Assembly: GCF_036053395.1 (NCBI RefSeq)
Contig: NZ_CP107942.1
Coordinates: forward strand, 6,280,501 to 6,344,500
Direction of reading: 5' to 3'
From: Actinoplanes sp. NBC_00393
GTDB lineage: Bacteria > Actinomycetota > Actinomycetes > Mycobacteriales > Micromonosporaceae
Length of the DNA: 64,000 bases
Each line of letters starts with the position of its first letter. Positions within the stretch are counted from its first letter, which is position 1. Made by a program: the position numbers and the translations under genes. The notes beneath the pieces were generated by a model. That model made no database searches, was not told the DNA's origin, and worked only from the letters and a program-made list of their open reading frames with translations. This document shows, piece by piece, positions 5,021 to 56,775 of this stretch.

Positions 5021-5395
5021 GGCTGACCGCCAGCGCTGCCTCAACGCCCCGCAAAACCCCGGCTGACCGCCAGCGCTGCCTCAGCGCCCCGCAGACAACC
5101 CTGCCCGTCAGCCCACCACCCGTGGCTGACCACCAGCGCTGCCTCAGCGCCCGCGACGACCCCGGCTGACCACCAGCGCTGCCTCAGCGCCCCGCAGACA
5201 ACCCTGCCCGTCAGCCCACCACCCTTGGCTGACCACCAGCGCTGCCTCAGCGCCCGCGACAAACCCCGGCTGACCGCCAGCGCTGCCTCAGCGCCTCGCA
5301 GGCAGCATTGCCGGTCAGCCCGCCACACTCGGCTGGCTCTCAGTGCTGTTTCAGCTGCCCGGAGACGACCCTCAGCGCCAGCTGGACTTGATCAA
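5021..5395. repeat. Tandem repeat array A (alternating 63/40-bp spacing)
   Basis: The core CGCTGCCTCA begins at 5034, 5074, 5137, 5177, 5240 and 5281, with a degenerate copy at 5344. Spacings are 40, 63, 40, 63, 41 and 63 bp. Each core is a hairpin, GCGCTG-CCT-CAGCGC, followed in the long units by a CCCGTCAGCCCACCACCC tail. The array ends in CAGCTGGACTTGATCAAGC, nearly the same end as the array at 18.2 kb. The gap from 4883 to 5020 shows no gene. Reading frames through the array are repeat artefacts. Confidence 0.9.
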
Positions 5396-6213
5396 GCTGC
5401 CGGGTCGGGGTGCTGGCCGACTGCGTTCCCAGCCCATGCCGGGCGCCCGCCGTCGCGCGTCCCGTGTTTGCCGCCGGGGCGGCGCAGGATCAGCCGGCCG
5501 AGTCCCCGTTCGGCACGGATCAGATAGCGGTCGGGAGCGCGGGCGAAACCCCGTTCCCGGAGAACGGTACCCGCGGCGGTGCCGTTGTTCGCCGACCACG
5601 GGGTGCGCACCGACCCGGCGCCCTCGTCGAACCGGATCCGGAACGGTGCAGCCGTCTCCGCGGTCAGCAGGGCAGTGCCGGTACCACCGAGGAACCGCAC
5701 CGGCACCGTGCCGACCGGATCCGGCAGCCACAACTCGGCCAGCCCGGACGCGCCCAGATCGACCCGGCTGATCCGGCCGTTACGCAGATGCAGCTGCTGT
5801 TCCCCCGCACCCGCCGGGAGGCGAATGCCCCATCGGACGTCGCGGTTCAGCACGACCCGCACCTCGTTCGGGCCGTCCCAGCCGGTCTCCCGCAGCCGGA
5901 CCACGACCCGCCCGCCCTGCCGCCGCACCACCGGCGCGACACCCGAATCGGGGGCGGTGCTGATCCGGTACAACAGGCCGGGGAGGGTCGCGAGCTGAAC
6001 ACGTACCCGGCTCGCTGCATCACCCAGAGTGAACGACGCCCGGTTCCGGTCGCCCAGCGGCCCGGCCACCACCCGGTCCGGCGCCTCCGGCGCCGGCTGC
6101 GGCAGCCGCGGCTCGGAGGCCGAGCAGGCAACCGCAACCACCGTCCCGACCAGCACGATCAAAACCGTGACGAACACGCTTGAGCGGCGGCGACGCAAGG
6201 CGGGGGGCACCAT
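5392..6213 (-). CDS. Putative lipoprotein, unknown function
   Basis: A 273-residue exported protein. Basic residues RRRR near the N-terminus precede a hydrophobic stretch (about 13-29) and a lipobox-like VAVAC-SAS, so Cys near residue 30 is probably lipidated and the rest extracellular. The mature part is rich in beta-type sequence with no recognised catalytic motif. A head-group-like adhesin or auto-transporter-like beta fold is possible but unproven. The stop codon lies inside the TGATCA at the boundary of repeat array A. The start at 6213 lacks a clear Shine-Dalgarno; a GTG one codon later is an alternative. Confidence 0.7.
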   Translation of the reverse strand: MVPPALRRRRSSVFVTVLIVLVGTVVAVACSASEPRLPQPAPEAPDRVVAGPLGDRNRASFTLGDAASRVRVQLATLPGLLYRISTAPDSGVAPVVRRQGGRVVVRLRETGWDGPNEVRVVLNRDVRWGIRLPAGAGEQQLHLRNGRISRVDLGASGLAELWLPDPVGTVPVRFLGGTGTALLTAETAAPFRIRFDEGAGSVRTPWSANNGTAAGTVLRERGFARAPDRYLIRAERGLGRLILRRPGGKHGTRDGGRPAWAGNAVGQHPDPAA

Positions 6214-6277
6214 CGGACAACGAAGAATCGGCCGAACGGGTGACGGCGATCCGTCCTGATCGCGCCAGACTGTCCGA

Positions 6278-6487
6278 GTGCGATCTGCCGGTTTCCTCTC
6301 CGAACGTCAGCGCCGCTTCGCGTGGCTGGGCTTCCTGCTAGCCGCCTTCCAGGCCCCCTTGGCCGCGCGGCTGGTCGACGACGCTTCCTGGTTCTTCGCC
6401 ATCGTGGTAGCCCTCGTCGTAGCCACGGTGATCATCGCGGACGACACCCAGCGCCGCCGCCCCGCCACCGTCGACTACCCGGAGTAA
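6278..6487 (+). CDS. Small membrane protein
   Basis: A 69-residue protein with two hydrophobic segments (about 14-32 and 38-53), a basic N-terminus and a charged tail ending in TVDYPE. The GTG at 6278 is the likely start. It converges with the gene at 6475 and the coding ends overlap by 13 bp. No family recognised; predicted from hydropathy, codon use and compact ends. Confidence 0.5.
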   Translation: MRSAGFLSERQRRFAWLGFLLAAFQAPLAARLVDDASWFFAIVVALVVATVIIADDTQRRRPATVDYPE

Positions 6488-7305
6488 TCGGGCAGCGCCT
6501 CATGCCCCGGCCGCCCATGGGTGCGCCGGCGCTCCTTCAGCTCCGCTTCGTAAAGGTGGCGCCGCCCCTGCGCGAGCTGATCCCGGGCGTCCCGCTCGAG
6601 GCTGCGAAACTCGGCGTAGTACCCGTCGTCGTAGGCCTCAACGATCTGGAACGTCCAGTGCCCCGGGATGACGTTGCGCCCGATCAGCTCCCGCTGGATG
6701 CGGTCGGCGACCTCAGTGTGCCCAGCCTGCATAAAGAGCGAGACGGCCTCATCCAGCATGAAGTCGGCGGTCCCGGTCAGCTGGTGCATCGAATACAGAT
6801 GCCCCCGCACCCTCTCCACCGTCTCCAGTGCCTCACTGAGCTTCCCCAGCGCTTGCACAGTGAGGTCATCCAGCCCATCCGGCCGCTGATGCTCCCCGTC
6901 CGGCCCATCCCCCGGCCGCTGGTCCCCCTCCGGTCGCCCTTCCCCCGCGGACCCATCCGCCGGCCGCCGCTCCGCTCCCGATTGCCGCTCCCCAGCGGAC
7001 CCGTCCGCCGGCCGCTGCTCCGCTCCCGGCTGCCGCTGCCCCGCGGGCCCGTCCGCCGGCCGCTGCTCCGCCTTCGACCCGGTCGGCGACTGCTGCTTCC
7101 CTCCAGACTTGTCCGCCGACCAGGGCTCTGACGCCGGCCGCTCTGGCGAATCCGGCCGTTGAAGCTCGCCGCCCGGGTCATCCAGGGTCTGCTGCGCCTC
7201 GCCCCCATCCGGCCGTTGGCCATCCGCCTTCCGCCGATCCGCATCGCCGGCGGTACCAGGCTTCGCCACCCCGTCTCCCCCTTCGCTGCTTCCCCGCTCA
7301 TCCAT
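6475..7305 (-). CDS. Conserved protein with disordered repeat N-terminus
   Basis: A 276-residue protein in two parts. Residues 1-143 are low-complexity and hydrophilic, with four 16-residue repeats of the form EQRPADGSAGERQ at about 80-143. Residues 144-276 form a conserved actinobacterial domain of unknown function (helical GHLYSMHQLTGTADFMLDEAV, GHTEVADRIQREL, then WTFQIVEAYDDGYYAEFR and a basic end RRRTHGRPGHEA). The ATG at 7305 is preferred; a GTG at 7332 would add nine residues. The repeat copy number is a likely site of strain variation. Confidence 0.75.
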   Translation of the reverse strand: MDERGSSEGGDGVAKPGTAGDADRRKADGQRPDGGEAQQTLDDPGGELQRPDSPERPASEPWSADKSGGKQQSPTGSKAEQRPADGPAGQRQPGAEQRPADGSAGERQSGAERRPADGSAGEGRPEGDQRPGDGPDGEHQRPDGLDDLTVQALGKLSEALETVERVRGHLYSMHQLTGTADFMLDEAVSLFMQAGHTEVADRIQRELIGRNVIPGHWTFQIVEAYDDGYYAEFRSLERDARDQLAQGRRHLYEAELKERRRTHGRPGHEALPDYSG

Positions 7306-7439
7306 GTGCCCGCCCGTTCCCCTAATCGCCACTTCATATCCCCGTTCGTCGCCATCTCACCCGCGCCCGCCGCCCAGCCAACGCCCTAGATCAAGGGAAA
7401 GGCCCGACCAAAAGCGAACCCGCCCGGCGCTTGACGAGG

Positions 7440-7672
7440 CCGAGCCCCTACCAGGCCGGCGCCGGACGAGGCCAAGCCCGAACCAGGCCGGCGCCGGCCC
7501 AGGCCAAGCTCCAGCCAGGCTGGCACCGGATCAGGCTGAGCTCCACCAGGCCGCTACCGGACCAGACTGAACCCCAACCAAGTCGGCACCGGCCTGGCTG
7601 AGCCCTAGCCAGGCCGGCGCTGGGCTTCGCCGAGCCCGAACCGGGCCGAGACCGACATCGAGCCGGGCGGCA
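7440..7672. repeat. Tandem repeat array B (about 31.5-bp period)
   Basis: Variants of CCAGGCCGGCGCCGG start at 7451, 7483, 7515, 7546, 7578, 7609 and 7641, so successive copies are 31 or 32 bp apart, half of the 63-bp period of the other arrays. The wider gap 7306-8069 holds no convincing gene. A loosely repeated GCCGAACCGG segment occurs at 7803 and 7860. Confidence 0.8.
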
Positions 7673-8069
7673 CGCCTAAATGCGGCGACCGACAGATACC
7701 GGACGACACCGGTTCACGGCATGGCCGAGATTCCGCTGAACCCCGCCGCGAAACCGGCAGCACCGGCGATCGCCGGAACCAACCTGCCCGCCCAGGGTCA
7801 CCGCCGAACCGGTCGACACCAGCTACCGCCGCAACCAGACTGCGCGACCCAGTGCCGCCGCCGAACCGGCGGACACCAGCCGCCGTCGCGGCCGAGGGTG
7901 GACCGGGCGCCGCCGGGCCGGTGTCGGGTCCGGCTGTGCCGAGCTTGATCGGGCTTGGGCGGCCGGCTCGATGAAGTGATTTCGCAGGTTCCCGGTGGGG
8001 ACGAGTTCAACCGGCCTGCAACGGTTCGGAGAACCGTTGGACACCCGACGGTCCATAACGTTTCTTCTC

Positions 8070-8426
8070 ATGAATGGCCTGTTCAGCAACGCCGCCGCCC
8101 GCGCTGCTCAGCGCTCCGCCCACGCCTCGCTCGCCGACCTGACCGCCGCAGTCGGTGTCAGTGGTATCGCCGCCGCGCAGGAGAACCCCGGCCTGATGTC
8201 CGTGATCGACCAGCACGCCGCCGGCGTGCGGGACAGCCTCGAGGCCGACAGCCGGCCGCTGACCGCGATCCTGCTGGCCGCGTACGCCGAGGGTGTCCGC
8301 GACGCCGCCTTCCAGCACGGCTGGGCCGCACCCGAGGGCCCGATCGACTGGACCGAGAACGACTGGGTCCTGCGCCGCCTGCTCGCCGTCTGCATGCTGT
8401 CGCGCAGCCTGCCGGCGCCCCGCTGA
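8070..8426 (+). CDS. DUF6401-family protein
   Basis: A 118-residue helical protein. The patterns AAAQENPGLMSVIDQHAAGVRD, LTAILLAAYAEGVRDAAFQHGW and IDWTENDWVLRRLLAVCML match my memory of the DUF6401 family, which databases label 'natural product biosynthesis protein' without strong functional evidence. No biosynthetic cluster is near. The ATG at 8070 is used; an upstream start at 7995 would add residues of poor quality. No clear ribosome-binding site. The role is unknown. Confidence 0.7.
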   Translation: MNGLFSNAAARAAQRSAHASLADLTAAVGVSGIAAAQENPGLMSVIDQHAAGVRDSLEADSRPLTAILLAAYAEGVRDAAFQHGWAAPEGPIDWTENDWVLRRLLAVCMLSRSLPAPR

Positions 8427-8524
8427 CTCTGAGCACCGCCCCGGCCTCCGCCGTCCGGGGAACCGCTCCCACCTGACCGTCACGGCCGCGAACCCGGCCA
8501 TCCAGCACCCGAAACCGGCCGTAT

Positions 8525-8592
8525 GGGGCCGGCACCGAACATCTCGCAGTCGGCTGTATGGGCCGGTGCCGGGATGTCCCGGTGCCGGCCCC
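8525..8592. terminator. Inverted repeat between convergent genes
   Basis: GGGGCCGGCACCG (8525-8537) and CGGTGCCGGCCCC (8580-8592) are perfect 13-bp arms, with another related GGGCCGGTGCC copy between them. The position between the 3' ends of the DUF6401 gene and the leftward channel gene suits a bidirectional terminator. There is no T-run. Confidence 0.5.
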
Positions 8593-8608
8593 ACGTCATT
8601 TCCCGGGG

Positions 8609-10519
8609 CTACTTCCCGGCCGGGCCGCTGCTGGGACGGTTCCGGCCGGGCTCGGTGGGAGCTTCGTCGTCGGCGGTCTGCGTTCCCTCGGCCACGGGCA
8701 GGGGCACCACCTGCGTACGCTCCCCGTCGTCAGCCGGCTCGATCACCACGGAACGCTCCGTGCCGGGGATCCGGACGAGGCTCGACTCGCGCACGTCCGA
8801 ACCAGAAGTGACCACCGTGGTGTCGTCCGCGTTGTCCTCAGCGCTACGGAAGATCACCGTCTCGGTCGCACCATCACCGGTCGGCGCTGTGTCGCCGGCT
8901 CCCCGGCCAAAAACCACCGTGTCTGTCGAACCGCCACCGCGCGCGGTCGTGTCGACTGTGTCGTCATCGCCACGGCCGAAGGTCACCGTCTCCGCCGAAT
9001 CCCTGTTGGCTGCCGTCGTGTCGGCCGTGTCATCACCGTTGCGCCCGAAAATCACTGTCTTGGTCGAGTCGTCCGCCGATTCCGGTGTGTCGTCGCGCCG
9101 AATCACGGTCGTCACCTCGTCGGCAGAAGAGTCCGGAAAGGCAGCCGATGGGGCAGACGATTCCGGGCGGGCCGCCGAGGGGGCAGACGATCCCGGAGAG
9201 GCCGCCGAGGGGGCAGACGAACCCGGGGAAGCCGCCGAGGAGGCAGACGAACCGGAGGCGACCGCGGAGGAAGCAGGTGTGCCCGAGGGAGCAGGTGAAT
9301 CCGGGGAGGCCGACGAAGGAACAGACGGGCCCGAGGAGGTCGCCGAAGGTGACGGAGAAGAGGCCGGTGACACCGGGGAGGTGAGACCTGGAGCTTCCGG
9401 GCCGAAACCGGGAACAGGGTTGCTCAGATCGCCGGCCGGTGCGGCGATGACCTGGGTCTCGTCGGCATCCCGCTCGTGGGCACGACGCTCCTCCGCGGCC
9501 ATCCGGGCTGCCCGGGCCCACTTCTCGGCGTCGGCGCGGCGTTCCTCCGCAGCCCGGCGTTCCTCCGCGAGACGTGCCTCCTCGGCGCGCGCGGCCTCCT
9601 CAGCACGGCGAGCGTCCTCAGCGCGACGTTCCTCTTCAGCCCGGCGCGCCTCCTCCGCCTGCCGCGCCTCCTCAGCACGGCGAGCTTCCGCGGCCTGCCG
9701 AGCCTCCTCGGCGCGACGGGCCTCCTCAGCGAGCCGCGCTTCCTCGGCTAGACGTGCCTCCTCGGCCCGGCGGGCCTCCTCCTCCCGGCGCGCCTCCTCC
9801 TCGGCGGCCTGCCGCGCGCGGTCCTCCGCATAGACCCGGGCCTGCTGGCGGATCGCAGCGGACTCGGTCGCCGCCCGGTCCAGCCAGCCTTCCCAGCGCC
9901 CTTGCATGGGCCGGATCAAGCCGCCGCCGACACCGACGATGATCACGCCGGCGACGGTGGCCAGGATCGTGATGAGCAGCGGCCGGGTCACCGAAGTAGC
10001 GATGCCGATCTGGTCGAGCCCGGCGATCACACCGAGAGTGACGATCACCGCGGCGACGGCTTTGGCGAGCACCCGCGCGTAGCCCAGGTCGCCGAGCGCG
10101 GCCACGATGAGATCGTGGGCGGCGCCGGCGACGGCGGCGGCGACCACCACCACGACGATGCCGACGAACACCTGTGGCAGCCAGGCGATCAGGGAGTTGA
10201 GCAGGTCGCTGACTGGGTTGGGACCCCAGAGACCGAAAGCGATCTGTACGGCGATCAGCAGCACCACGAAGAACGCGAGCCGGGCGCAGACGTCGGTGGC
10301 GCTCGGCGCCTTGCCCCGGAACAGCCGCCCGGCCGGACCCCGCTGGATCGCCCGGTCGAAGTTGACCCGGCGCAGCGCCTTGCCGGTCACCGTGCGGGCC
10401 AGCCGGGCCAGCAGGTAGCCGACGATCAGGATCGCCAGGAACGCCAACGCGTACGGCAGGAACAGCACCACCGATCGCCACAGGTCGCTCAGCCCTCGGC
10501 TCAGCCCGTCCTGGCTCAT
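8609..10519 (-). CDS. Mechanosensitive-channel-like membrane protein with long coiled coil
   Basis: A 636-residue protein. The first 205 residues carry about five membrane helices (about 17-40, 80-97, 112-135, 150-170, 180-203), resembling the conserved TM-helix repeat of mechanosensitive-channel-related proteins. Residues about 225-360 are an almost uninterrupted E/A/R heptad-like coiled coil built from AEEARRAEEAR-type repeats. The tail is Ser/Pro/Ala-rich and then carries repeated TV-x-FGR and DDT motifs. No MscS beta domain is seen. The ATG at 10519 follows GAGGGAGGGCGG. It probably links the membrane to a cytoplasmic partner; the partner is unknown. Confidence 0.8.
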   Translation of the reverse strand: MSQDGLSRGLSDLWRSVVLFLPYALAFLAILIVGYLLARLARTVTGKALRRVNFDRAIQRGPAGRLFRGKAPSATDVCARLAFFVVLLIAVQIAFGLWGPNPVSDLLNSLIAWLPQVFVGIVVVVVAAAVAGAAHDLIVAALGDLGYARVLAKAVAAVIVTLGVIAGLDQIGIATSVTRPLLITILATVAGVIIVGVGGGLIRPMQGRWEGWLDRAATESAAIRQQARVYAEDRARQAAEEEARREEEARRAEEARLAEEARLAEEARRAEEARQAAEARRAEEARQAEEARRAEEERRAEDARRAEEAARAEEARLAEERRAAEERRADAEKWARAARMAAEERRAHERDADETQVIAAPAGDLSNPVPGFGPEAPGLTSPVSPASSPSPSATSSGPSVPSSASPDSPAPSGTPASSAVASGSSASSAASPGSSAPSAASPGSSAPSAARPESSAPSAAFPDSSADEVTTVIRRDDTPESADDSTKTVIFGRNGDDTADTTAANRDSAETVTFGRGDDDTVDTTARGGGSTDTVVFGRGAGDTAPTGDGATETVIFRSAEDNADDTTVVTSGSDVRESSLVRIPGTERSVVIEPADDGERTQVVPLPVAEGTQTADDEAPTEPGRNRPSSGPAGK

Positions 10520-10628
10520 CCGCCCTCCCTCGTCCGGCACGCCACTCGGCCACCTCAACGAACGATAGGACTCAGGAGTACCACGTGCCTCCGACAATCT
10601 CCGCGGCCCCCGAGTCGGCGGGGACGAC

Positions 10629-11723
10629 TCAGGCGCAAGCGGTTCCGTTGATCGCGCAGCCGGTCGGCAGTTCCTCGGGCACGCCGTCGATGGTGAAACT
10701 GATGGTCACCGACTCACCGGCGGCGAGTTCAGCTCCACCGGCCGGCCGGAACGTGACCCTGCTCCCGGATTGCGACATCCGCACGTCGCCGCCGGACAGG
10801 GTGACCTCCTCCCCGCCCGGCACGGTGAGGGAGACGGACCAGTCGGCGCCGGCGCTGCCGCCGGAGTTGACCACCTGAACTGTGCCGCTGTAACCGGAGG
10901 CGGCGTCCGACCGAAAGCCGTAGAACGCGGTGTACGCAGCCGGGTCGGCGGCCGGCCCGCTTGATTCGGGACTCAGTGACCGCGTCGGCTCGCGGACCAC
11001 GGCACCGAGATCGATGCTGGGCAGCGACGGTGAACTGCTCGCGGAAGCCGAGGCGGACGGTGAGCGGCTGGCCGAAGGAGAAGCCGAGGTCGGGGCGCTG
11101 CTGGCGGGAACCGGATCCTCCGAGTCCGCTGCCGGCGAGTCGGTCGCTGAGGCCTCGGCGCCGACCGGCGCGGTGCTGACCGCGACCGGGGTCTCGGGCT
11201 CGTCGTCGCCGCCCCGGACGAACGCCACGCCACCGACCAGCAGGGCCAGCGCCGCAACGGTCACGGCCGCGGCCCGGATCCGGCGGACGCGGGTGGCGCT
11301 GCCAGGCGCGACGTGGGACACCGGAAGCCGCCCGGACTCGGCGCCGGGCGCCGGCCAGGGCCGCTCGAACCGCGCCTCGGTGACCGCCGACATCGTGACC
11401 GTCTCCGCAGAATCGGCCCAGTCCGCGAGAGCCGCATACCGCTCAGCCGTCATGTCCGCCGAAGGCTCAGCAGGCACGTCCGAGGATGGAGACGAGGCAA
11501 CGGCAGGAGACGAAGGAGGAGACGAGGCAACGGCAGCAGACGAAGGAGGAGGAGAGGAAGGGGACGAGGACCAGTCGACGGTCACGCCTGAGGAAGGTCC
11601 GAACGAGGAGGGCGACCCAGCCGACGGCTGATCATCGAACCACCCCGGCTCGGAGGGAGCGAACTCCGACAATTCAGAATGCTCCGCGTTGTGGCGCATC
11701 ACACGGCGCGGTCGATCGGTCAC
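10629..11723 (-). CDS. Membrane-anchored protein with C-terminal CBM2-like domain
   Basis: A 364-residue single-pass protein. A Ser/Pro-rich cytoplasmic part is followed by a membrane helix near 150-170 (AAAVTVAALALLVGGVAF), a Ser/Ala/Pro linker and a C-terminal domain of about 100 residues. The domain resembles carbohydrate-binding module family 2: SGTVQVVNSGGSAGADWSVSLTV-type core, LAAGESVTISF and two late Cys (GCAINGTACA). The start is uncertain; the GTG at 11723 has AAGG upstream, and a GTG at 11786 would extend it. Probably displays a glycan-binding module outside the membrane. No catalytic domain is present. Confidence 0.72.
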   Translation of the reverse strand: MTDRPRRVMRHNAEHSELSEFAPSEPGWFDDQPSAGSPSSFGPSSGVTVDWSSSPSSPPPSSAAVASSPPSSPAVASSPSSDVPAEPSADMTAERYAALADWADSAETVTMSAVTEARFERPWPAPGAESGRLPVSHVAPGSATRVRRIRAAAVTVAALALLVGGVAFVRGGDDEPETPVAVSTAPVGAEASATDSPAADSEDPVPASSAPTSASPSASRSPSASASASSSPSLPSIDLGAVVREPTRSLSPESSGPAADPAAYTAFYGFRSDAASGYSGTVQVVNSGGSAGADWSVSLTVPGGEEVTLSGGDVRMSQSGSRVTFRPAGGAELAAGESVTISFTIDGVPEELPTGCAINGTACA

Positions 11724-11912
11724 GGCGGCGACCTTAGCCGAATCCCGATCATGTAGACCAAGCTCAGAACGCCGCCGACCTGCCACGCTGTGTCACCTCC
11801 CGCGTGAAACAGTCACGACACATCTGCCTGGCAGGCTTGAGAGACAGTCAATAACCGGACGGACGGCCGGTGGGGCATCGTACAAACGGACCACTCGGGA
11901 TAGGCTTTCCGC

Positions 11913-14087: not shown

Positions 14088-14749
14088 GGCCCGGAGTTCT
14101 GTTCGACGTCGACGGCACCTTGATCGACACCACATATCTGCACGCCGTCTCCTGGTGGGAGTCGCTGCGGCAGCACGACCACGACGTACCGATGGCGGAG
14201 ATCCACCGCGGCATCGGCATGGGCTCCGACAAGCTGCTCGACCATCTGCTCGGCGCGGACCGTGACCACGACGCGGACGAGGAGATGACCACCGCGCACG
14301 ACGTGCTCTACGGAGCCTGGTGGGAGCGGTTGCGGCCGCTGCCGGGCGCCGCCGATCTGGTTCGTGCGGTCGCCGCCAGAGACCTGGCCGTGGTGCTCGC
14401 CTCCTCAGCCCGGGAGCCCGAGTTGAACCAGCTCCGCCGGGTCCTCGGCGCCGACGACGTGATCACCGCCGCCACCTCGTCCGCCGACGCCGAGGAGAGC
14501 AAGCCGGCCCCGGACATCCTCCAGGCCGCCCTGGACCAGTCGGACGTCGACCCGGAACACGCCGTCTACGTCGGTGACGCCGTCTGGGACGTGCAGGCCG
14601 CCGGCAAGCTCGGCATCCCCTGCATCGGCCTGACCTGCGGTGGCACCAGCGCCGCAGAGCTGCGGGAGGCGGGCGCGATCGCGACGTACGCGAACCCGGC
14701 CGCCCTGCTCGAGGACCTGGAGTCCACCGCCATCGCTGACCTGAAGTAA
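14084..14749 (+). CDS. HAD-family phosphatase
   Basis: A 221-residue haloacid-dehalogenase superfamily hydrolase of the beta-phosphoglucomutase/phosphoglycolate phosphatase type. Motif I FDVDGTLID is at about 7-15, motif II ASSA near 107, the motif III Lys in ESKPAPD near 140 and motif IV GDAVWDVQAA near 164. A helical cap lies between motifs I and II. The ATGA overlap with the upstream phosphatase gene implies translational coupling. The physiological substrate cannot be deduced. Confidence 0.9.
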   Translation: MRPGVLFDVDGTLIDTTYLHAVSWWESLRQHDHDVPMAEIHRGIGMGSDKLLDHLLGADRDHDADEEMTTAHDVLYGAWWERLRPLPGAADLVRAVAARDLAVVLASSAREPELNQLRRVLGADDVITAATSSADAEESKPAPDILQAALDQSDVDPEHAVYVGDAVWDVQAAGKLGIPCIGLTCGGTSAAELREAGAIATYANPAALLEDLESTAIADLK

Positions 14750-14753
14750 GAGC

Positions 14754-15986: not shown

Positions 15987-16091
15987 TACTTTTCTGCTCT
16001 AAACCGGACAATGAACCGTGCGGTGGTGACGAAGCGTATTCAGTGCCGTAGAGTGCTCAAGCAACTGGGGATGTCCACAACGGAGCGGCTC

Positions 16092-16847: not shown

Positions 16848-16902
16848 CCTTCAGCGGGTAATGGCACAGGCGTTCGAGACAATCGACCGGAAGGACGGCG
16901 TC

Positions 16903-17450: not shown

Positions 17451-18059
17451 ATGTTCGAGCGATTCACCAAGGAAGCCCGCGCCGTCGTCGTCGGCGCCCA
17501 GCAGCAGGCCCGCGAGCTGGGACACGAGACCATCGGCACCGAACACACCCTGCTCTCCCTGCTCGCCGGCGACAACGGCGCGATCCGCGACGCCCTGAGC
17601 AACCGCGGCGTCGATCAAACCTCGGTCCGGCAGGCGATCATCGAGCACGTCGGCGACCACAGCGAGGCCACCACCATCGCCGACCGCGACGCCGAGGACG
17701 CGGCCGCACTCAAGGCCATCGGCATCGACCTGGACGCCGTCCGCGCCGCCATCGAGGAGAACTTCGGAGCCGGCGCCCTGCGCCTGCCCCGCCCCGCCCC
17801 CAAGAAACGCGGCATCTTCGGCCGCTTCCAGACCGGCACCAGCCACATCCCGTTCTCCCCCCGCAACAAGAAGGTCCTCGAGCTCTCCCTGCGCGAAGCC
17901 ATCCGCCTCAAGCACAACTACATCGCGCCGGAACACATCATGCTCGGCCTCCTGCGCGAAGGCGCGGGCCTGGCAGCCCTCATCCTCGCCGAAAAAGCAG
18001 TCGACTTCGATGCGGTGCGCGAGCAGCTGACTCGCTCACTCAACAGCCACGCGGCCTGA
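17451..18059 (+). CDS. Clp N-terminal domain protein (ClpC-like, no ATPase)
   Basis: A 202-residue protein with two Clp_N repeats: FERFTKEARAVVVGAQQQARELGHETIGTEH at 2-33 and PFSPRNKKVLELSLREAIRLKHNYIAPEHIMLGLL in the second half. There is no AAA+ module. Such proteins may act as adaptors for or competitors of ClpC/ClpP-bound substrates. It is cotranscribed with the HTH gene. Function is inferred only from the domain. Confidence 0.9.
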   Translation: MFERFTKEARAVVVGAQQQARELGHETIGTEHTLLSLLAGDNGAIRDALSNRGVDQTSVRQAIIEHVGDHSEATTIADRDAEDAAALKAIGIDLDAVRAAIEENFGAGALRLPRPAPKKRGIFGRFQTGTSHIPFSPRNKKVLELSLREAIRLKHNYIAPEHIMLGLLREGAGLAALILAEKAVDFDAVREQLTRSLNSHAA

Positions 18060-18222: not shown

Positions 18223-18560
18223 CCCGCCCGGCTGACACCCAGCGCTGCTTCGCAGCCGCGGAAGCAGCACTCACCGTCAGCCACGAACGACCAGCTGACC
18301 ACCAACGCTGCTTCGCAGCCACCGAAGCAACCCCCACCGTCAGCCACGAACCACCAGCTGACCACCAACGCTGCTTCGCAGCCCCGGAAGCAACACTCAC
18401 CGTCAGCCACGAACCACCAGCCGACCACCAACGCTGCTTCGCAGGCCCGGAAGCAACACTCACCGTCAGCCACGAACCACCAGCCGACCACCAACGCTGC
18501 TTCGCAGGCCCGGAGGCAACGCTCAGAGTCAGCTCGACATGATCAAGCTGGTCGACGCCG
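18223..18560. repeat. Tandem repeat array C (63-bp period, five copies)
   Basis: CGCTGCTTCGCAG starts at 18243, 18306, 18369, 18432 and 18495, an exact 63-bp spacing. Each unit has the hairpin GCTGC-TTC-GCAGC and a tail ACCGTCAGCCACGAACCACC. The last unit ends in CAGCTCGACATGATCAAGC, matching the end of array A. Because 63 is divisible by three, the minus strand stays open as a 21-residue repeat, which I treat as an artefact. The gap 18060-18222 shows no gene. Confidence 0.93.
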
Positions 18561-18632: not shown

Positions 18633-18687
18633 CGGCTGGGTGTGAGGGCTGTTTCAACGGCCAGGAAGCAGCCCTCACACCCAGCCG
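18633..18687. repeat. Long inverted repeat related to array C
   Basis: Perfect 19-bp arms CGGCTGGGTGTGAGGGCTG (18633-18651) and its complement at 18669-18687; four further pairs including one G-T extend the stem to 23 bp around a 9-nt loop. The element ends in GTGATCAACAAGC shortly after, like the array ends, so it is probably a diverged single unit of the same repeat family. Confidence 0.85.
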
Positions 18688-18834
18688 GCGTGATCAACAA
18701 GCATGAATTCGGGGCCGGGCTGGGCTTAAGGACCTGGGCGCCGCTCGGTGGGTATCGCCGCCGGTCCGGCTGGCGTGTCCGGCACTTGCGGGTCGCTCGG
18801 TTAGTGCCCCGCCGGCGGCTCGACCGGGGCGGCG

Positions 18835-19160
18835 CCGAGCTGGCAGTCCAACCCGGGCGGCGTTGAGCTAGCAGCTCGACCGGGGCGGCGCCGAGCTGGC
18901 AGCTCAACCCCCGGCAGCACCAAGCTGGCAGCTCAACCCTGGCGGCACCAAGCTGGCAGCTCAACCCCCCGGCAGCTCAAGTCCGGCAGCACCAAGCTGG
19001 CGGCTCAACCGCGGCAGCCCAAGCCCGGCAGCACCAAGCTGGCAGCTCAACCCCGGCAGCCCAAGCCCGGCAGCACCAAGCTGGCAGCTCAAGCCCGGCA
19101 GCGCTGAGGTGGCAGCTCAACCCGGCAGGCGCCGAGCTGGCAGCGAGACCCGGCGGCATT
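18835..19160. repeat. Tandem repeat array D (14-nt modules)
   Basis: AGCTGGCAG or close variants start at 18838, 18866, 18894, 18923, 18951, 18995, 19037, 19079, 19107 and 19135. The spacings are close to 28 or 42 bp, which are multiples of 14. Interleaved GGCAGC/GGCGGC motifs fill the gaps. No gene is supported in 18688-19224. Confidence 0.8.
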
Positions 19161-40192: not shown

Positions 40193-40354
40193 CCTGGAGA
40201 CTTCGGTGCCGGGGTCTCGCCGGCGCGGCCGGCAGGGCATCGGAACCGCACCGCGGTGGGTGGATCGGAGACCGCGCAGGTCCGGGGACGGGCTGGGGAG
40301 GCGTCATTCGAGGGACCCCTTCCCGTAAGCGTTCACACCCGCTCCGGATGTAGT

Positions 40355-40373
40355 CACACCCGCAGCGGGTGTG
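40355..40373. repeat. Short palindrome CACACCCGC-A-GCGGGTGTG
   Basis: Perfect 9-bp arms with a 1-nt centre, in the 367-bp gap between hrpB and the leftward GGDEF-EAL gene; a third CACACCCGC half lies at about 40335. May be an operator or part of a terminator. No gene is seen in 40193-40559. Confidence 0.4.
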
Positions 40374-46251: not shown

Positions 46252-46298
46252 CGGCTCCCTCTGTCCGTCGCCTCAGGGAGTCATGGTGCACCAGGTCG

Positions 46299-46664: not shown

Positions 46665-46692
46665 GGATCACATGATGGCCGACCGCGGAAAG

Positions 46693-50684: not shown

Positions 50685-52795
50685 CACACCGTCCTGTCCA
50701 GCACGATGAGGGACCGGTCCGGCACCCAGATCTTGTGTCCGGCCTCCACGACGGACGGGCGATCCGGGGACGGATCTGCGGTTTCGATGACTCTTTCCCA
50801 CTTCTCCCCGTATTCAGCGGGAGGCGTGGTGAATTCGAGCGGCGCGTCGTGCGCGTTGAAGAAGAGCAGGAACGAGCTGTCCACGTGGCGCTGGCCGTAC
50901 TGGCCGCGCTCCCGGATGCCCTCGCCGTTGACGAAGAGCGCGACCGCCCGGCCGAAGTCGTTGCCCCAGTCGTCACCGGCCATCTGCCGGCCGTCCGGGG
51001 TGAACCACTCCAGGTCGGGCAGCGGGTCCCCGCCGCCGCGGGCGGTCACCGGCAGCCCGGTGAAGAAGCGGCGGCGCTGGAAGACCTGGTGCCGGTGCCG
51101 GAACGCGGTCAGCTTGCGGGCGAAGTCGAGCAGCTGCTCGTCGGCGTTCTCCCAGTCGATCCAGCTGAGCTCGTTGTCCTGGCAGTACGCGTTGTTGTTG
51201 CCCTGCTGGGTGCGGCCCATCTCGTCGCCGTGCGAGATCATCGGCACGCCCTGGCTGAGCATCAGCGTGGCCAGGAAGTTGCGCCGTTGCCGGGCCCGCA
51301 GCGCCAGCACCTTCTCGTCGGTGGCCGGGCCCTCGATGCCGCAGTTCCAGGACCGGTTGTGGCCCTCGCCGTCCCGGTTCTCCTCGCCGTTCGCCTCGTT
51401 GTGCTTGTCGTTGTACGACACCAGGTCGTTGAGCGTGAACCCGTCGTGCGCCGTGACGAAGTTGATCGAGTGGAACGGCTTGCGGCCGTCGTCCTGGTAG
51501 AGGTCGGCCGAGCCGGTGATCCGGGACGCGAACTCGGCCAGGGTGGCCGGCTCGCCCCGCCAGAAGTCCCGGACGGTGTCGCGGTACTTGCCGTTCCACT
51601 CGGTCCAGTTCGGCGGGAAGTTGCCGACCTGATAGCCGCCGGGGCCGACGTCCCACGGCTCGGCGATCAGCTTGACCTGGCCGACCACCGGGTCCTGCTG
51701 GACCACCTCGAAGAACGTGGAGAGCCGGTCCACGTCGTAGAACTCGCGGGCCAGGGTCGAGGCGAGGTCGAAGCGGAAGCCGTCGACGTGCATCTCGGTC
51801 ACCCAGTAGCGCAGCGAGTCCATGATCAGCTGGAGGCTCTGCGGGCTGCGCACGTTGAGGCTGTTACCCGTACCCGTGTAGTCCATGTAGAACTGCGGTT
51901 GATCGTCGACGAGCCGGTAGTAGGTCCGGTTGTCGATGCCCTTCAGGCTGAGTGTCGGCCCCAGATGATTGCCCTCCGCGGTGTGGTTGTAGACCACATC
52001 GAGGATGACCTCCATCCCGGCCGCGTGCAGCGCCTTCACCATGCCGCGGAACTCCTGGGTCTGCTGGCCCAGCGAGCCCATCGCCGAATACCCGTGGTAC
52101 GGCGCGAAGAAGCCCAGCGTGTTGTAACCCCAGTAGTTGCGCAGCCGCAGGTCGTGCAGGCGGTTGTCGTGGACGAACTGGTGCACCGGCATCAGCTCGA
52201 CCGCGGTCACGCCGAGGCTCTTCAGGTGCTCGATGATCGCCGGGTGCCCGATCGCCGAGTAGGTGCCGCGCATGTCCCGCGGAATCTCCGGGTGCCGCTG
52301 GGTGAGGCCCTTCACGTGGGTCTCGTAGATCACCGAGTGGTGGTACGGGATGTCCGGGCGGCGGTCGTTGCCCCAGTCGAAGTACGGGTTCACCACGACG
52401 CCCTTGGGCATGTACGGCGCCGAGTCCAGATCCGACATCTGGTCCGGGTTCGCGAAGTCGTAGGCGTACAGCGAGGGGTGCCAGTCGATGTCCGAGTCGA
52501 CCGCCCGCGCGTATGGGTCGAGCAGCAGCTTGTGCGGGTTGCACCGCAGTCCCCGGTGCGGCTCGTACGGGCCGTAGACGCGGTAGCCGTACCGCTGGCC
52601 CGGCTCCACCCCCGGCAGGTACGCGTGCCAGACGAACGCGTCCTGCTCGTGGAGCTGCACCTTCCGCTCGTTGCCGGAGGGGTCGAACAGGCAGAGCTCG
52701 ACCGCCTCGGCCACCTCGGAGAAGATCGCGAAGTTCGTGCCCGTCCCGTCGTACGTGGCACCCAACGGGTACCGGTGACCAGGCCAGACCTGCAT
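50684..52795 (-). CDS. treX: Glycogen debranching enzyme GlgX/TreX
   Basis: A 703-residue GH13 isoamylase-type enzyme that hydrolyses alpha-1,6 branches of glycogen for TreY/TreZ. Features: CBM48 N-terminus GATYDGTGTNFAIFSEVAEAVELCLF, MEVILDVVYNHTAEGN, VDGFRFDLASTLA (Asp), KLIAEPWDVGPGGYQVG (Glu) and NFVTAHDGFTLNDLVSYNDKHNEANGEENRDG. The ATG at 52795 has GGGAGC; an upstream ATG at 52855 would add 20 residues. First gene of the operon. Confidence 0.95.
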   Translation of the reverse strand: MQVWPGHRYPLGATYDGTGTNFAIFSEVAEAVELCLFDPSGNERKVQLHEQDAFVWHAYLPGVEPGQRYGYRVYGPYEPHRGLRCNPHKLLLDPYARAVDSDIDWHPSLYAYDFANPDQMSDLDSAPYMPKGVVVNPYFDWGNDRRPDIPYHHSVIYETHVKGLTQRHPEIPRDMRGTYSAIGHPAIIEHLKSLGVTAVELMPVHQFVHDNRLHDLRLRNYWGYNTLGFFAPYHGYSAMGSLGQQTQEFRGMVKALHAAGMEVILDVVYNHTAEGNHLGPTLSLKGIDNRTYYRLVDDQPQFYMDYTGTGNSLNVRSPQSLQLIMDSLRYWVTEMHVDGFRFDLASTLAREFYDVDRLSTFFEVVQQDPVVGQVKLIAEPWDVGPGGYQVGNFPPNWTEWNGKYRDTVRDFWRGEPATLAEFASRITGSADLYQDDGRKPFHSINFVTAHDGFTLNDLVSYNDKHNEANGEENRDGEGHNRSWNCGIEGPATDEKVLALRARQRRNFLATLMLSQGVPMISHGDEMGRTQQGNNNAYCQDNELSWIDWENADEQLLDFARKLTAFRHRHQVFQRRRFFTGLPVTARGGGDPLPDLEWFTPDGRQMAGDDWGNDFGRAVALFVNGEGIRERGQYGQRHVDSSFLLFFNAHDAPLEFTTPPAEYGEKWERVIETADPSPDRPSVVEAGHKIWVPDRSLIVLDRTV

Positions 52796-52999
52796 GTCGT
52801 GCTCCCACCCCTCGGCCGTCACTGCGATCGCGGCCGGCGGCGACGGTATGCCCATCAGAGGGACCGGCTAACCCTGCGCGGCCGCGTCAGCGGTCATTCT
52901 CTCGGACCTGACTGCTGACGTCGGCCCGACTGTCCGGTTAGCCGCTGATATCTCCCCGTCCGGGGGTTTGATGTGTCGCAAATTGAGCATTGAGGCACC

Positions 53000-54949
53000 G
53001 TGCCGCAAACTGATCAGATCACGTTCGGGCCGCAGATTTGCGGCTCAATTCACGAGGACGCCGGTGGAGGCCGGGAATGGCTGGTCACCGACGGCCTCGG
53101 CGGATACGCGACGGGAACGGTCAGCGGACTTCGGACTCGCCGCTATCACGCGCTGCTGACCGTCACCGATCAGCATTCGGTGCGTCATGTCGCACTCGCC
53201 GCGCTCGATCTGACTGTGACGCTCGCCTCTGGCGCCAAGGTCGCGCTCTTCACCCACGAGTGGGAGTCCGGCGTCCTCGATCCGGCCGGGCACCGCCACC
53301 TGGAGACGTTCACTCTCCGCGACGGCCTGCCCCGGTGGCGCTGGCGCATCGGCGACGTGGTGATCGAGCGGGAACTGGCCCTGCGGCACGGACATCCTTC
53401 GCTCGCCGTCGTGCACCGGGTGGTGAGCGCGCCCGGGCCGGTCGGTCTTGCGGTCGCCGCGATGTGCACGTGGCGTGACGCGCACGGCGTGCGGCACGCC
53501 GACGGTCCGCTCGGCGCCGAGCCGGTCGCCGACGGCGTGGTGGTCGCCGGCGCGTACCGGCTGGCCGGTCCGGGCTGGCAGCCGGCCGGAGTCTGGCACC
53601 TGGGCGTGCGCGCCCGTCTCGAGGCCGAACGTGGCCTGCCGGCGACCGAGGACCTCTGGCACGCCGGGACATTCTCCCGCCAGGTCGGCCCGGGCGAGGC
53701 GATGGAGATCTCGGCATGGGCCGGTGAGCTGGGCGAACGGCCGCCGGCCGCGGCGGTGGTCATCGCCGAGCAGCGCGAGCGCGCACACCGCCTGGTCACT
53801 GCCGCAAAAGCTGAGGGGTACGCGGAAACGCTCGTTCTCGCCGCGGACAAGTTCGTGATCCACGCCCCCGACGGTCCGGACGTGGTCGCCGGCTACCCGT
53901 GGTTCGGCAGCTACCTGGGCGACACGATGACCGCGTACGAGGGGCTGTTCCTGGACACCGGCCGCGCCGAGGAGGGCCGGGAGCTGCTGATCGCCCGGAC
54001 CCGGACGGCTGCCCGGGCCGCGGCCGAGCCGACCGAACCGTGGCAGCGCCACGACTCCCTCGATGCGCCGCTCTGGCTGGTGCACGCGGTCGACCGGCAC
54101 GTCACGCGTACCGGTGACAGCGACCTGGCCGCCAGACTGGCGATGCCGCTCGGCCGCCTGCTGCGCCGCCGCCTCAGCGGAACCGGCCCGCTCAGCGTGG
54201 ACCCGGCCGACGAGCTGCTGCGCCTCGAACCGCCGCCCGGCCACGACGCCGGCACCTGGATGAGCGGCTTCACCGAGGACGGCCCGGTCACCCCGCGGAT
54301 CGGCAAACCCGTGGAGATCAACGCGCTCTGGGTGAACGCGCTCGCCGCGATGTGCGACCTGCTCGCCGAAGCCGGCCGGGACGACACCGAGCCCCGCGCC
54401 CGGCACGCCCGCGCCCGCGATGCGTTCCTGGCCCGCTTCCCGGCCCCGGAAGGCTGGCTGTACGACGTGGTCGAAGGGCCGGCCAGCACCTACCCGCTCG
54501 GCGCCGGGGCGCACCACGACGACCCGTCGCTGCGGCCGAACCAGCTGCTCGGCTGGTCGCTGCCGCACGCGCCGATGCGGGGACACAGCGACGCCGCGGT
54601 CCACACCCTCGCCGAGGCGCTGCTCACCCCGCTGGGCCTGCGCACCCTCGCCCCGAACGAGTACGGCTACCAGGGCCGGCACCGCGGTGGGCGGGACGAC
54701 CGGGACATGGCGTACCACCAGGGCACCGTCTGGCCGTGGCTGATCGGCCCGTACGCCGACGCCTGCGCCGCCACCGGCCGCCCGGCCGACGGCCTGCTCA
54801 CCGGCCTGGAAGCACACCTGTCCGAGTGGGGCGTCGGCTCGGTCAGCGAGACCGCGGACGGCGACGCCCCGCACCGCGCCACCGGCTCCCCGTTCTCCGC
54901 CCGGGCAGTCGCCGAAGTCCTGCGAGTGAAACGAAGGTACTCGTCATGA
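53000..54949 (+). CDS. GDE-type amylo-alpha-1,6-glucosidase
   Basis: A 649-residue protein of the bacterial glycogen-debranching/amylo-1,6-glucosidase family (GH133-like). N-terminal GREWLVTDGLGGYATGTVSGLRTRRYHALL is diagnostic; the (alpha/alpha)6 catalytic half has AGYPWFGSYLGDTMTAYEGLFLDTGR, KPVEINALWVNALAAMCDL, GHSDAAVHTL and DMAYHQGTVWPWLIGPYADA with acidic catalytic candidates. GTG at 53000 with GAGG 5 nt upstream. Divergent from treX, so two unrelated debranching enzymes share one intergenic region (52796-52999). Confidence 0.92.
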   Translation: MPQTDQITFGPQICGSIHEDAGGGREWLVTDGLGGYATGTVSGLRTRRYHALLTVTDQHSVRHVALAALDLTVTLASGAKVALFTHEWESGVLDPAGHRHLETFTLRDGLPRWRWRIGDVVIERELALRHGHPSLAVVHRVVSAPGPVGLAVAAMCTWRDAHGVRHADGPLGAEPVADGVVVAGAYRLAGPGWQPAGVWHLGVRARLEAERGLPATEDLWHAGTFSRQVGPGEAMEISAWAGELGERPPAAAVVIAEQRERAHRLVTAAKAEGYAETLVLAADKFVIHAPDGPDVVAGYPWFGSYLGDTMTAYEGLFLDTGRAEEGRELLIARTRTAARAAAEPTEPWQRHDSLDAPLWLVHAVDRHVTRTGDSDLAARLAMPLGRLLRRRLSGTGPLSVDPADELLRLEPPPGHDAGTWMSGFTEDGPVTPRIGKPVEINALWVNALAAMCDLLAEAGRDDTEPRARHARARDAFLARFPAPEGWLYDVVEGPASTYPLGAGAHHDDPSLRPNQLLGWSLPHAPMRGHSDAAVHTLAEALLTPLGLRTLAPNEYGYQGRHRGGRDDRDMAYHQGTVWPWLIGPYADACAATGRPADGLLTGLEAHLSEWGVGSVSETADGDAPHRATGSPFSARAVAEVLRVKRRYSS

Positions 54950-55014
54950 CCGACCGCACCGACCGGTGCCCAGCCGCACCGACCTGCCGCCTCGCAAGTG
55001 AGGGCCCAGCCTGA
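54946..55014 (+). CDS. Candidate 22-residue bridging ORF
   Basis: A tiny frame starts in ATGA over the debranching gene stop and ends in TGATG over the glycosyltransferase start, so ribosomes could step through all three by overlap. Encodes MTDRTDRCPAAPTCRLASEG plus two residues. No own ribosome-binding site is seen. It may only serve translational coupling. Chance is possible, but both junctions being overlaps is notable. Confidence 0.35.
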   Translation: MTDRTDRCPAAPTCRLASEGPA

Positions 55015-56288
55015 TGCGCATCCTGATGCTGTCGTGGGAGTACCCGCCGCTGCTGGTCGGCGGTCTCGGCCGGCACGTGCACGCGCTCGCCACCACCCTG
55101 GTCGCGGCCGGGCACGAGGTCACCGTGGTGACGCGGCACGTGCCGGGCGCGCTGCTCGAGGAATACACCGAAGGGGTACGCGTGATCCGCGCCCCCGACG
55201 ACCCACCCGGCTTCGACACGTCCGGCGGGAACCTGCTGGCCTGGGCGGTGGCGTTCAACCACACCCTCACCCGGGCCGCCCTGCGCGCCGCCCGCACCGG
55301 CCGGTACGACGTCGTCCACGCCCACGACTGGCTCGTCGCCCACGCCGCCATGACCGTGCGCGACCACCTGGACGTGCCGCTGGTCGCCACGATCCACGCC
55401 ACCGAGTCCGGCCGGCACCAGGGCTGGCTGCCGGACGCGCACAACCGCACCATCGACGACATCGAACGCTGGCTGGCCGGTGAGGCGGTCCGCACCATCG
55501 TCTGCTCGGCGTACATGAGGCTCGAGGTGGGCCGGCTGTTCGGGGTGCCGGCCGGGCGCACCGACGTGGTCTTCAACGGGGTCGACGCGCTGCGCTGGCG
55601 GGCCCGGCCCCGCGCGGTCGCCGCCGCCCGAGCCCGATACGCCGGGGACGGGCCGCTGGTCAGCTACGCCGGCCGGCTGGTCTACGAGAAGGGCGTGCAG
55701 CACCTGCTGGCCGCGGTGCCCATCCTGCGGGAACAGCATCCCGGCCTGCGGGTGGTGATCGCGGGCGACGGCCCGTACCGGGAAGATCTCGAAGCCCTCG
55801 CCACGCCCGGCGTGACCTTCGCCGGATTCCTCGGCGGGCACGAACTGACCGCGCTGATGGGCGCCTCGGACTGCTACGTCGTACCCAGCATCTACGAACC
55901 GTTCGGCATGGTCGCGCTGGAGGCAGCCGCGGCCGGCACCCCCGTCGCCGTCGCCGACACCGGCGGCCTCGCCGAGATCGTCGACCATGGCGTGACCGGC
56001 GTGAAGTTCCCCTCCGGCTCGCCCGCCGCCCTGGCCGCCGCAACCGCTGAGGTGCTCGCCGACCGCGACTACGCCCGGGCCCTCGCCCTCCGCGCGCTCG
56101 ACCGTGTCCGCGCCGACTTCAACTGGCCGGCAATCGCCGCACAAACCGTCGCGGTCTACGAACGCGCCCGAGCCTGCGACGCCCGCCGCGTCTCCCGCGA
56201 AGCCGAACACCTCCTCGCCCGAACCCCGCTGAGGGCTGCTTCGCAGCCCTCAAAACAACCCTCCCCGTCAGCCACCCACACCGGCTGA
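55014..56288 (+). CDS. GT4 glycosyltransferase, glycogen-synthase-like
   Basis: A 424-residue GT-B retaining glycosyltransferase. The N-terminus MRILMLSWEYPPLLVGGLGRH carries the GGLG nucleotide loop seen in GlgA-like enzymes; the C-domain has VSYAGRLVYEKGVQHLL, VVIAGDGPYRE and the E-x7-E in PSIYEPFGMVALEAAAAG. Placed after a debranching enzyme, it probably extends alpha-1,4-glucan or makes a precursor of it. The last 20 residues (RAASQPSKQPSPSATHTG) are encoded by a copy of the 63-bp repeat family and are unlike the rest. Confidence 0.9.
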   Translation: MRILMLSWEYPPLLVGGLGRHVHALATTLVAAGHEVTVVTRHVPGALLEEYTEGVRVIRAPDDPPGFDTSGGNLLAWAVAFNHTLTRAALRAARTGRYDVVHAHDWLVAHAAMTVRDHLDVPLVATIHATESGRHQGWLPDAHNRTIDDIERWLAGEAVRTIVCSAYMRLEVGRLFGVPAGRTDVVFNGVDALRWRARPRAVAAARARYAGDGPLVSYAGRLVYEKGVQHLLAAVPILREQHPGLRVVIAGDGPYREDLEALATPGVTFAGFLGGHELTALMGASDCYVVPSIYEPFGMVALEAAAAGTPVAVADTGGLAEIVDHGVTGVKFPSGSPAALAAATAEVLADRDYARALALRALDRVRADFNWPAIAAQTVAVYERARACDARRVSREAEHLLARTPLRAASQPSKQPSPSATHTG

Positions 56289-56455
56289 CCCAGCGCCGCC
56301 CCCGGCCCCGCCGACCCCGCCGCCCCCGCCGCCCCCGCCGCCCCCGGCCCCGCCGGCCCCGCCGGCCCCGGAAGCAGCCCTCACCGTCAGCCACCCACAC
56401 CAGCCAACCCAGCGCCGCTTCCTCGAAGCCCTCCGAACAGCCCCACCGTCAGCGC
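56231..56455. repeat. Repeat copies E with simple-sequence expansion
   Basis: A unit of the 5.0/18.2 kb family (hairpin GAGGGCTGC-TTC-GCAGCCCTC at 56231-56251 with 9-bp stem, then CCCGTCAGCCACCCACA) covers the 3' end of the glycosyltransferase gene. A CCGCC/CCCCG simple-sequence tract of about 75 bp (56285-56358) follows, then further unit pieces with ACCGTCAGCCACCCACACC up to about 56455. Confidence 0.85.
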
Positions 56456-56499
56456 GGCGACTCAGCTCAAACGGCCCTGCAACACCGAACCAGCCACGA

Positions 56500-56775
56500 T
56501 CACGTGCCTGACCGCCGGCCGGAAAGGCTCAGCTGGCGCTGAGGCATGGAATGAGCCCGGATAACCTGCCTGACCGCCAGCCGGACACGCCCAGCCGACA
56601 CTGAGACATGGAATAAGCCCCGGATAACCTGCCTGACCGCCAGCCGGACACGCCCAGCCGACACTGAGGCATGGAATGAGCCCCGGATAACCTGCCTGAC
56701 CGCCAGCCGGACACGCCCAGCCGACACGGAGACACCGAGGCCCCCGACTACGTGCCTGACCGCCAGCCGGACGCG
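56500..56775. repeat. Tandem repeat array F (63-bp period)
   Basis: GCCTGACCGCCAGCCGGA or variants start at 56506, 56568, 56631, 56694 and 56754 (62, 63, 63 and 60 bp apart). The unit includes GACACTGAGGCATGGAATGAG and CCCCGGATAACCT. It shares CTGACCGCCAGC with array A but otherwise differs. The gap 56289-56868 has no gene apart from these repeats. Confidence 0.9.

Follow-up and report, generated by a model that had tools for sequence, protein, structure and literature searches.

Background

Most discussion of palindromic repeats treats them as relics of transposons, as gyrase sites or as the ends of mRNAs. Among other repeats and motifs that invite comparison, the MIRU/VNTR minisatellites (mycobacterial interspersed repetitive units/variable number tandem repeats) are tandem repeats of some 50-100 bp, scattered through the intergenic DNA of an actinobacterial genome, and KOPS-type octamers (FtsK-orienting polar sequences) are short fixed motifs that follow the leading strand in both replichores, their orientation being the signal. 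Here we describe a family of 51-bp palindromes that forms tandem arrays in a 64,000-bp stretch ("the window", positions 6280501-6344500) of Actinoplanes sp. NBC_00393 (genome G000, a single contig of 11,433,213 bp), together with a second family of equal unit length, called family F after array F of the window. The composition of the arrays follows the direction of replication, a feature missed by an earlier note on this DNA. No description of the repeat family was recognised in the literature, judged on titles and abstract openings.

The closest described systems are the repetitive extragenic palindromic (REP) sequences of the GTAG and CGTC super-families. In the portions of the source consulted (PMC3733652), REPs measure 20-40 bp and are found mainly between unidirectional and convergent open reading frames (ORFs), downstream of coding regions; neither Actinoplanes nor Actinobacteria is named in the main text of that paper. 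The Actinoplanes repeats share with REPs a high copy number, an extragenic position behind or between convergent genes, G-T stem pairs and a sequence that varies between species. They differ in unit length (51 bp with 21-bp arms, outside the REP range), in lacking a GTAG or CGTC tag that stays unpaired (GTCAGC is paired with GCTGAC up to the last base of the unit), in forming long tandem arrays with a 62/63-bp step, and in that a Y1 transposase was not found in five Actinoplanes carriers. In bacterial interspersed mosaic elements (BIMEs), palindromic REP units are likewise regularly spaced in clusters, and the units alternate in orientation, according to the part of the source that we used (PMC2817692). 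In Actinoplanes, a near-symmetric unit is repeated with a skew that follows replication, and the units of family F keep one orientation within an array. Compared by description only, MIRU/VNTR loci and the Actinoplanes arrays are both intergenic and tandem, the Actinoplanes units being long palindromes. In habitat and copy number the repeats are REP/BIME-like; in length and in the lack of an unpaired tag they fall outside the REP definition.

Array composition follows the direction of replication

The orientation of an array (a run of one or more units) was measured by base composition and by mismatch type on the leading strand, which is fixed by position; the strand score difference of the sequence profile was dropped as a measure because iteration had made the profile symmetric. 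In G000 the dnaA gene is located at 8.534 Mb and its antipode at 2.82 Mb. Independent support for this replichore assignment comes from the octamer CGGGGGAG, which is found 149:10 on the leading strand outside arrays in a systematic sample of the genome (L074-L172; 99 stretches of 20 kb, 1.98 Mb). It changes strand at about 2.9 Mb and again at 8.1-8.4 Mb, and its counts close to the origin are low. This octamer is a candidate FtsK-type polar sequence of this Actinoplanes.

Read on the leading strand, units have a GC skew of +0.35 and a TA skew of +0.43 at their variable positions, and the skew extends to the linkers (+0.38/+0.55) and the loops (+0.18/+0.44). Intergenic DNA has +0.036/+0.087 near units and, elsewhere in the systematic sample after masking of every unit, +0.015/+0.022. 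Among 77 fetched arrays (from the window, stretches picked by similarity to array C, eight control stretches and the systematic sample), the leading strand is G/T-rich in 62, not so in 13 and neutral in 2 (p = 8e-9). The skew grows with array size (Spearman 0.58): arrays with at least three units follow the replichore in 48 cases and oppose it in 4, and those with one or two units do so 14:9, with 2 neutral. The systematic sample alone, which overlaps the fetched set, gives 20:3 for arrays of at least three units and 12:8 (2 neutral) for smaller ones. At 24 loci away from fetched units, drawn from 100 of 554 pattern places, the count is 21:3 (p = 0.0003). The strand of the neighbouring genes is irrelevant, as 47 of the 50 arrays with at least three units and both flanks follow replication.

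The second family allows site and element to be separated. Array F was not matched by the main-family profile, and its own family is dispersed in the genome (20 matches at E up to 0.01, with 40 of 87 candidates scored). The family F unit is 51 bp long with the ends GCTGGC/GCCAGC, repeats mostly at 63 bp and carries a conserved asymmetric core, TGAGRCATGGAAT. Units inside one array share one orientation, which is itself free: when all 31 places matching the family F pattern were grouped within 1 kb, the core was on the leading strand at 7 loci and on the lagging strand at 7. Read in core orientation, the seven leading-strand-core loci all have a G/T excess of at least +0.157, and the seven lagging-strand-core loci are all at or below +0.059, one of them positive (exact p = 0.0006). 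A profile-based sample of the same family, taken from the fetched stretches, contained four arrays at 0.14 to 0.32 versus four at -0.20, -0.16, -0.10 and +0.07. In family F it is thus the direction of replication at the site that determines the composition, which was not brought along by the element. Units of the main family are too symmetric to permit this separation.

Recent changes, folding and stem pairing

Recent changes were defined as single deviations from an array's majority base, scored in the variable columns of 32 arrays with at least four similar units. Changes from A or C to G or T were found in 81 of 332 columns and the reverse in 105 of 628 (Fisher p = 0.005). By type, C>T occurred 37 times in 246 C columns versus 33 G>A in 450 G columns, and the counts for C>G and G>C were 30 and 36 in the same two sets of columns. 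Among the 220 distinct 51-bp units, the leading-strand copy folds more stably in 173 with DNA parameters and in 178 with RNA parameters. The mismatches within stems read on the leading strand as GT over AC 619:168 and GG over CC 390:132.

The earlier note had taken matching changes in the two stem halves as a sign of selection for structure. Such compensation holds for two relatives, in which it exceeds that of shuffled controls (z +4.8 for 71 distinct units of genome G038 and +7.3 for 69 of A. palleronii), and fails in G000 (z -3.7, 220 units; 68% of stem pairs Watson-Crick) and in A. xinjiangensis (z -3.2, 99 units), where the stems are less complementary than the shuffles; the shuffles take no account of kinship of units within arrays. 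Within G000 the GCTGAC type has z -7.3 and the 24 GCTGGC-type units z -1.8. The negative values are consistent with G.T-rich and A.C-rich units being mixed, and structural compensation was rejected across the G000 arrays, where pairing is decayed. Template switching can create stem compensation without selection, according to the part of the source seen (PMC8794818).

Replication polarity in relatives

In G038, with dnaA at 1.765 Mb and the chromosome length taken as a rounded 10.3 Mb, the best 75 distinct places among 293 matches group into 51 loci; 31 of these are informative (unequal numbers of the two mismatch types) and 20 are tied. The replication rule is followed by 25 of the 31. Judged by its total base count, a locus gives a weaker signal, and 30 of the 51 point the expected way. 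Each of the four A. xinjiangensis contigs that carry at least two arrays of at least three units is uniform in sign (permutation p = 0.016, with the three-unit cut chosen after the G000 result), and the same-contig test over all 26 informative loci is not significant (p = 0.15). A. palleronii gave no signal in that test (29 informative loci; 4 concordant versus 5 discordant pairs).

The repeat unit, its copy number and its step

The main unit is an imperfect palindrome with 21-bp arms and a 9-nt loop, and the match length was 51 bp in 278 of 330 fetched units. The CCGTCAGCC tail that the earlier note set apart from a short hairpin core is the 3' end of the right arm and pairs with GCTGAC of the left arm; hairpins of the GCTGC-TTC-GCAGC type are local and lie inside this unit, the family-wide feature being the 51-bp dyad that includes the tail. 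Among 220 distinct 51-bp matches the outer GCTG/CAGC is invariant and C6, G14, T20, A32, C38 and G46 are nearly so, while positions 7-10 and 13, the loop and the partners of these positions vary. The fixed ends are partly a selection effect, because the local search trims and excludes units with altered ends.

The proposal of a dispersed family is borne out. A main-family pattern of 25 fixed bases, with up to three mismatches allowed, gave 554 matches in G000 on one strand and 568 matches on the opposite strand, and its reversed control 0 on either; most sites are counted twice because the pattern is palindromic, which leaves about 560 close copies. The systematic sample contains 154 units, 135 of them at E<1e-3, which scales to perhaps 890 per genome, and a BLAST search, with 40 of 109 candidates scored, returned 146 dispersed matches.

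A fixed period of 63 bp, equal to six helical turns, had also been proposed. Array C does keep it exactly, and a step of 62 or 63 bp recurs across loci and species: neighbouring units of the fetched arrays are spaced at 62 (146 steps), 63 (66) or 61 bp (8), with few other values. Array A alternates between 40 and 63 bp because every second unit is truncated, the two matches in array E start 135 bp apart, and steps of 84, 92, 97 and 107 bp occur in relatives. Linkers are 11 or 12 nt long and differ in sequence between arrays, with a weak consensus. Because 62 bp is commoner than 63 bp in G000, other steps occur and linkers vary, the 62/63-bp step is a strong tendency and not a law of six helical turns.

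Location relative to genes

Most of the repeats sit behind genes, above all where two genes converge. Genes were called with a codon-usage caller, not taken from curated annotation; the arrays that fell inside called genes were 5 of 92 at the named-species loci and, in the systematic sample, 1 of 45. Of these 45 arrays, 40 could be assigned (4 lacked a flank), and 26 of the 40 are between convergent genes, where 10.6 are expected by intergenic length and 7.2 by gap number; the remainder are 1 divergent (10.2 expected), 9 ++ (9.0) and 4 -- (10.2). At the best 80 of 97 loci from named species, 72 of the 92 arrays were assigned (15 had no two flanks), with 35 convergent (7.3 expected), 5 divergent (26.1), 18 ++ (24.3) and 14 -- (14.4). 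In G000, the TGA of the unit's GCTGAC serves as the stop codon at 8 of 116 neighbouring gene 3' ends. A side role of the repeats as a transcription boundary between convergent genes is possible.

Distribution in the genus

The arrays are not unique to this strain. The window-type pattern matched 11 of 67 same-genus genomes, G000 included. A GCTGGC-type pattern was run on 36 of these (the other 31 were given the window-type pattern alone) and matched 8, with up to 438 copies in G040; it had 0 matches in 164 genomes from 43 other genera of Micromonosporaceae. When named genomes were scanned with the congener unit form, the best 80 of 97 stretches were all Actinoplanes records, and among the matches listed the named carriers are A. 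utahensis, A. siamensis, A. xinjiangensis, A. palleronii, A. flavus, A. lutulentus and A. philippinensis. Among the single units of relatives, many form almost perfect hairpins of 51 nt, and congener units mostly end in GCCAGC. The step is 63 bp in 59 of 65 steps below 200 bp in A. xinjiangensis and in 9 of at least 25 such steps in A. palleronii (also 84, 85, 97 and others), and the G038 arrays among the matches listed have steps of 92, 107 and other values. The family F pattern (up to two mismatches) matched G000 alone among the 67 congeners.

In 100 kb from three pattern-negative congeners, 5 hairpins were seen, none of main-family type by eye, a sample too small to rule out diverged relatives. 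A 59-bp near-perfect hairpin of G041 (L178 965-1023), with a related but different arm, hints that the architecture is wider than the patterns detect. Taken as a whole, the repeats are apparently non-coding, REP-like, genus-restricted palindromes of Actinoplanes.

Arrays of the window

The features are listed in Table 1. Arrays A, C and E belong to one family, as the earlier note had it (profile matches to E 3e-13; the reversed window gave a single weak place, E 0.16). Array F, which was grouped with them, does have spacing of the 63-bp type; its membership did not stand, and it represents the second 51-bp/63-bp family. Array B, also offered as a relative, had no meaningful main-family profile match (best E 0.05 in its stretch) and, judged by its sequence, is unrelated to the main family.

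Table 1. Repeat arrays and units in the window, and further family F arrays in fetched stretches of G000
Feature	Coordinates	Strand	Description
Array A	5022..5382	+	main-family profile matches; steps 40/63/40/63/41/63
Array A, full 51-bp units	5062-5112, 5165-5215, 5269-5319, 5332-5382		GCTGGC type
Array A, truncated units	5022-5053, 5125-5156, 5228-5259
Array C	18231..18533	+	five units, starting at 18231, 18294, 18357, 18420 and 18483; exact 63-bp step
Single hairpin	18633..18687	.	near-perfect, main-family architecture; 23-bp arms, 9-nt loop; profile E 1.4e-5
Array E	56227..56391	+	two partial units, 56227-56272 and 56363-56391; match starts 135 bp apart
Array F	56532..56767	+	second family, core TGAGRCATGGAAT; steps 62/63
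Array F, units	56532-56581, 56594-56644, 56657-56707		decayed copy from 56720, which, like the opening base of the first unit, was read straight from the sequence
Family F array	L063 2821-3679		fetched stretch
Family F array	L123 7019-7382		fetched stretch

Array A sits between an ORF ending at 4882 (+) and a minus-strand ORF from 5392, neither of which had a Pfam match. Array C, which includes two GCCGAC units, is located behind a Clp_N-domain gene (17451-18059, +) and is A/C-rich on the + strand, which is the lagging-strand sequence at that site. The first unit of array E overlaps the 3' end of a glycosyltransferase ORF (55014-56288). A tRNA scan of the window found nothing.

Three other repeats were noticed: immediately after array C, a tandem array distinct from it (18814-19144), whose GGCAGCTCAAGCC-like units recur at 28 and 42 bp; a 38-bp tandem repeat with 99% matches that reaches the window end (63831-64000); and a similar short hairpin (CACACCCGC ... 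GCGGGTGTG) at 40334-40373 and at L154 4034-4073, perhaps another small repeat.

Discussion

We propose, with slightly more confidence than doubt, that the repeats form a family of REP-like palindromes and that their arrays accumulate changes biased by replication strand, on a lagging template that is folded or single-stranded. The sequence of the leading strand is that of the lagging-strand template. As a fork passes an array, this template would fold into hairpins, stay single-stranded or be filled by low-fidelity gap synthesis, and would in this way collect strand-biased changes; the conserved boxes may be kept by selection or by homogenisation between units, and tandem growth could proceed through slippage or template switching. 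Strand-biased change is favoured because of the bias among recent changes and the more stable folding of the leading-strand sequence.

Several results weigh against this proposal. Calling a change recent assumes that the majority base of an array is ancestral; the contrast is weaker when all unit columns are taken (97/650 versus 118/982); and the recent bias is modest, predicting an equilibrium of 59% G/T where 65% is observed, so that part of the effect may be due to selection or to a bias that was formerly stronger. The lopsidedness of GG over CC is near that of GT over AC, a feature not expected from simple deamination. When the two flanks are averaged, the skew stops at the array edge, which is abrupt for an exposed stretch, and the two flanks of arrays with at least three units are oppositely skewed, the 5' flank at about -0.23 (C-rich) and the 3' flank at +0.5 falling to +0.13 (G-rich); C-rich towards the array on either side, they exceed ordinary gene ends (-0.04). 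The replichore rule is broken by 4 of the 52 arrays with at least three units, and in one of these four, at 11.270 Mb (L062 5082-5567), three units at -0.22 to -0.29 are strongly opposed to it, with two at +0.33 and +0.41. This array runs from three A/C-rich units to two G/T-rich ones, possibly a local inversion.

The strong preference for convergent genes, the stop codons supplied by the unit's TGA, the compensated stems of two relatives and the RNA-parameter folding in favour of the leading-strand sequence would all suit a function in RNA, with the repeats acting as bidirectional terminators or mRNA 3'-end stabilisers and G.U pairs marking the transcribed strand. The polarity is, however, independent of the strand of the flanking genes and reaches into unpaired linkers and loops, no Rfam family was found at gathering score within the window, and no T-run was seen behind the units of the window on reading the sequence, so that we regard this explanation as unlikely. 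The strict agreement of arrays with replichores could instead reflect a selected polarity, the arrays being KOPS-like or Chi-like orientation signals for a translocase or recombination enzyme and their leading-strand G/T richness the signal itself. Like KOPS, the arrays are polar in both replichores, and the octamer form of E. coli, GGGNAGGG, stands 12:1 on the leading strand in arrays versus 166:125 outside. Unlike KOPS, the asymmetric core of family F occurs on either strand and it is the composition that is polar; the polar octamer of G000 itself, CGGGGGAG, was not found in the fetched arrays, the linker consensus is weak, and units alone or in pairs are nearly unskewed. The arrays were accordingly rejected as KOPS-type sites in spite of the GGGNAGGG count, and selected polarity in the wider sense is in our judgement distinctly unlikely.

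An asymmetric G/T-rich unit might also have been put into lagging templates by a single-strand transposase, in the style of REP and its associated tyrosine transposase (RAYT) or of IS200/IS605. Known single-strand transposases target the lagging template, as stated in the part of the source seen (PMC6006769), and the linkers retain a weak shared consensus. The weight of this explanation is raised slightly by the opposed three-unit block at 11.270 Mb, such as a chance wrong-way insertion would leave, and by the distribution of Y1 transposase matches (PF01797), present in 21 of 67 congeners, namely 7 of 12 carriers versus 14 of 55 others (same-genus genomes with no pattern match; Fisher p = 0.04). 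The match was nevertheless not found in carriers G028, G033, G047, G054 and G065, and G000 has two partial Y1 matches only, one with an internal stop. Since family F elements lie in either orientation and take opposite, site-set skews, oriented insertion does not explain family F, for which it is strongly disfavoured; for the repeats in general we hold it to be improbable. That the arrays merely make visible, in neutral repeats, the ordinary mutational skew of replication across the genome agrees with the sign (a G/T-rich leading strand) and hardly deserves belief when skews of 0.35 to 0.55 in variable positions and linkers are set beside those of intergenic DNA near units and elsewhere.

Conclusions

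The clearest signal in the arrays is replication direction, separated from gene strand and, in family F, from element orientation. We consider it an evenly balanced question whether tandem hairpin arrays are local amplifiers of replication-strand asymmetry, in which continuous G/T-ward change on the lagging template exceeds that of other intergenic DNA more than tenfold and array polarity records the direction of replication at the site, in at least two, perhaps three, Actinoplanes species. If the skew is due to exposure of single-stranded lagging template at hairpins, the arrays would be natural lagging-strand reporters, with hundreds of units distributed chromosome-wide, and the behaviour of palindromes at live bacterial replication forks would become testable by plain resequencing.

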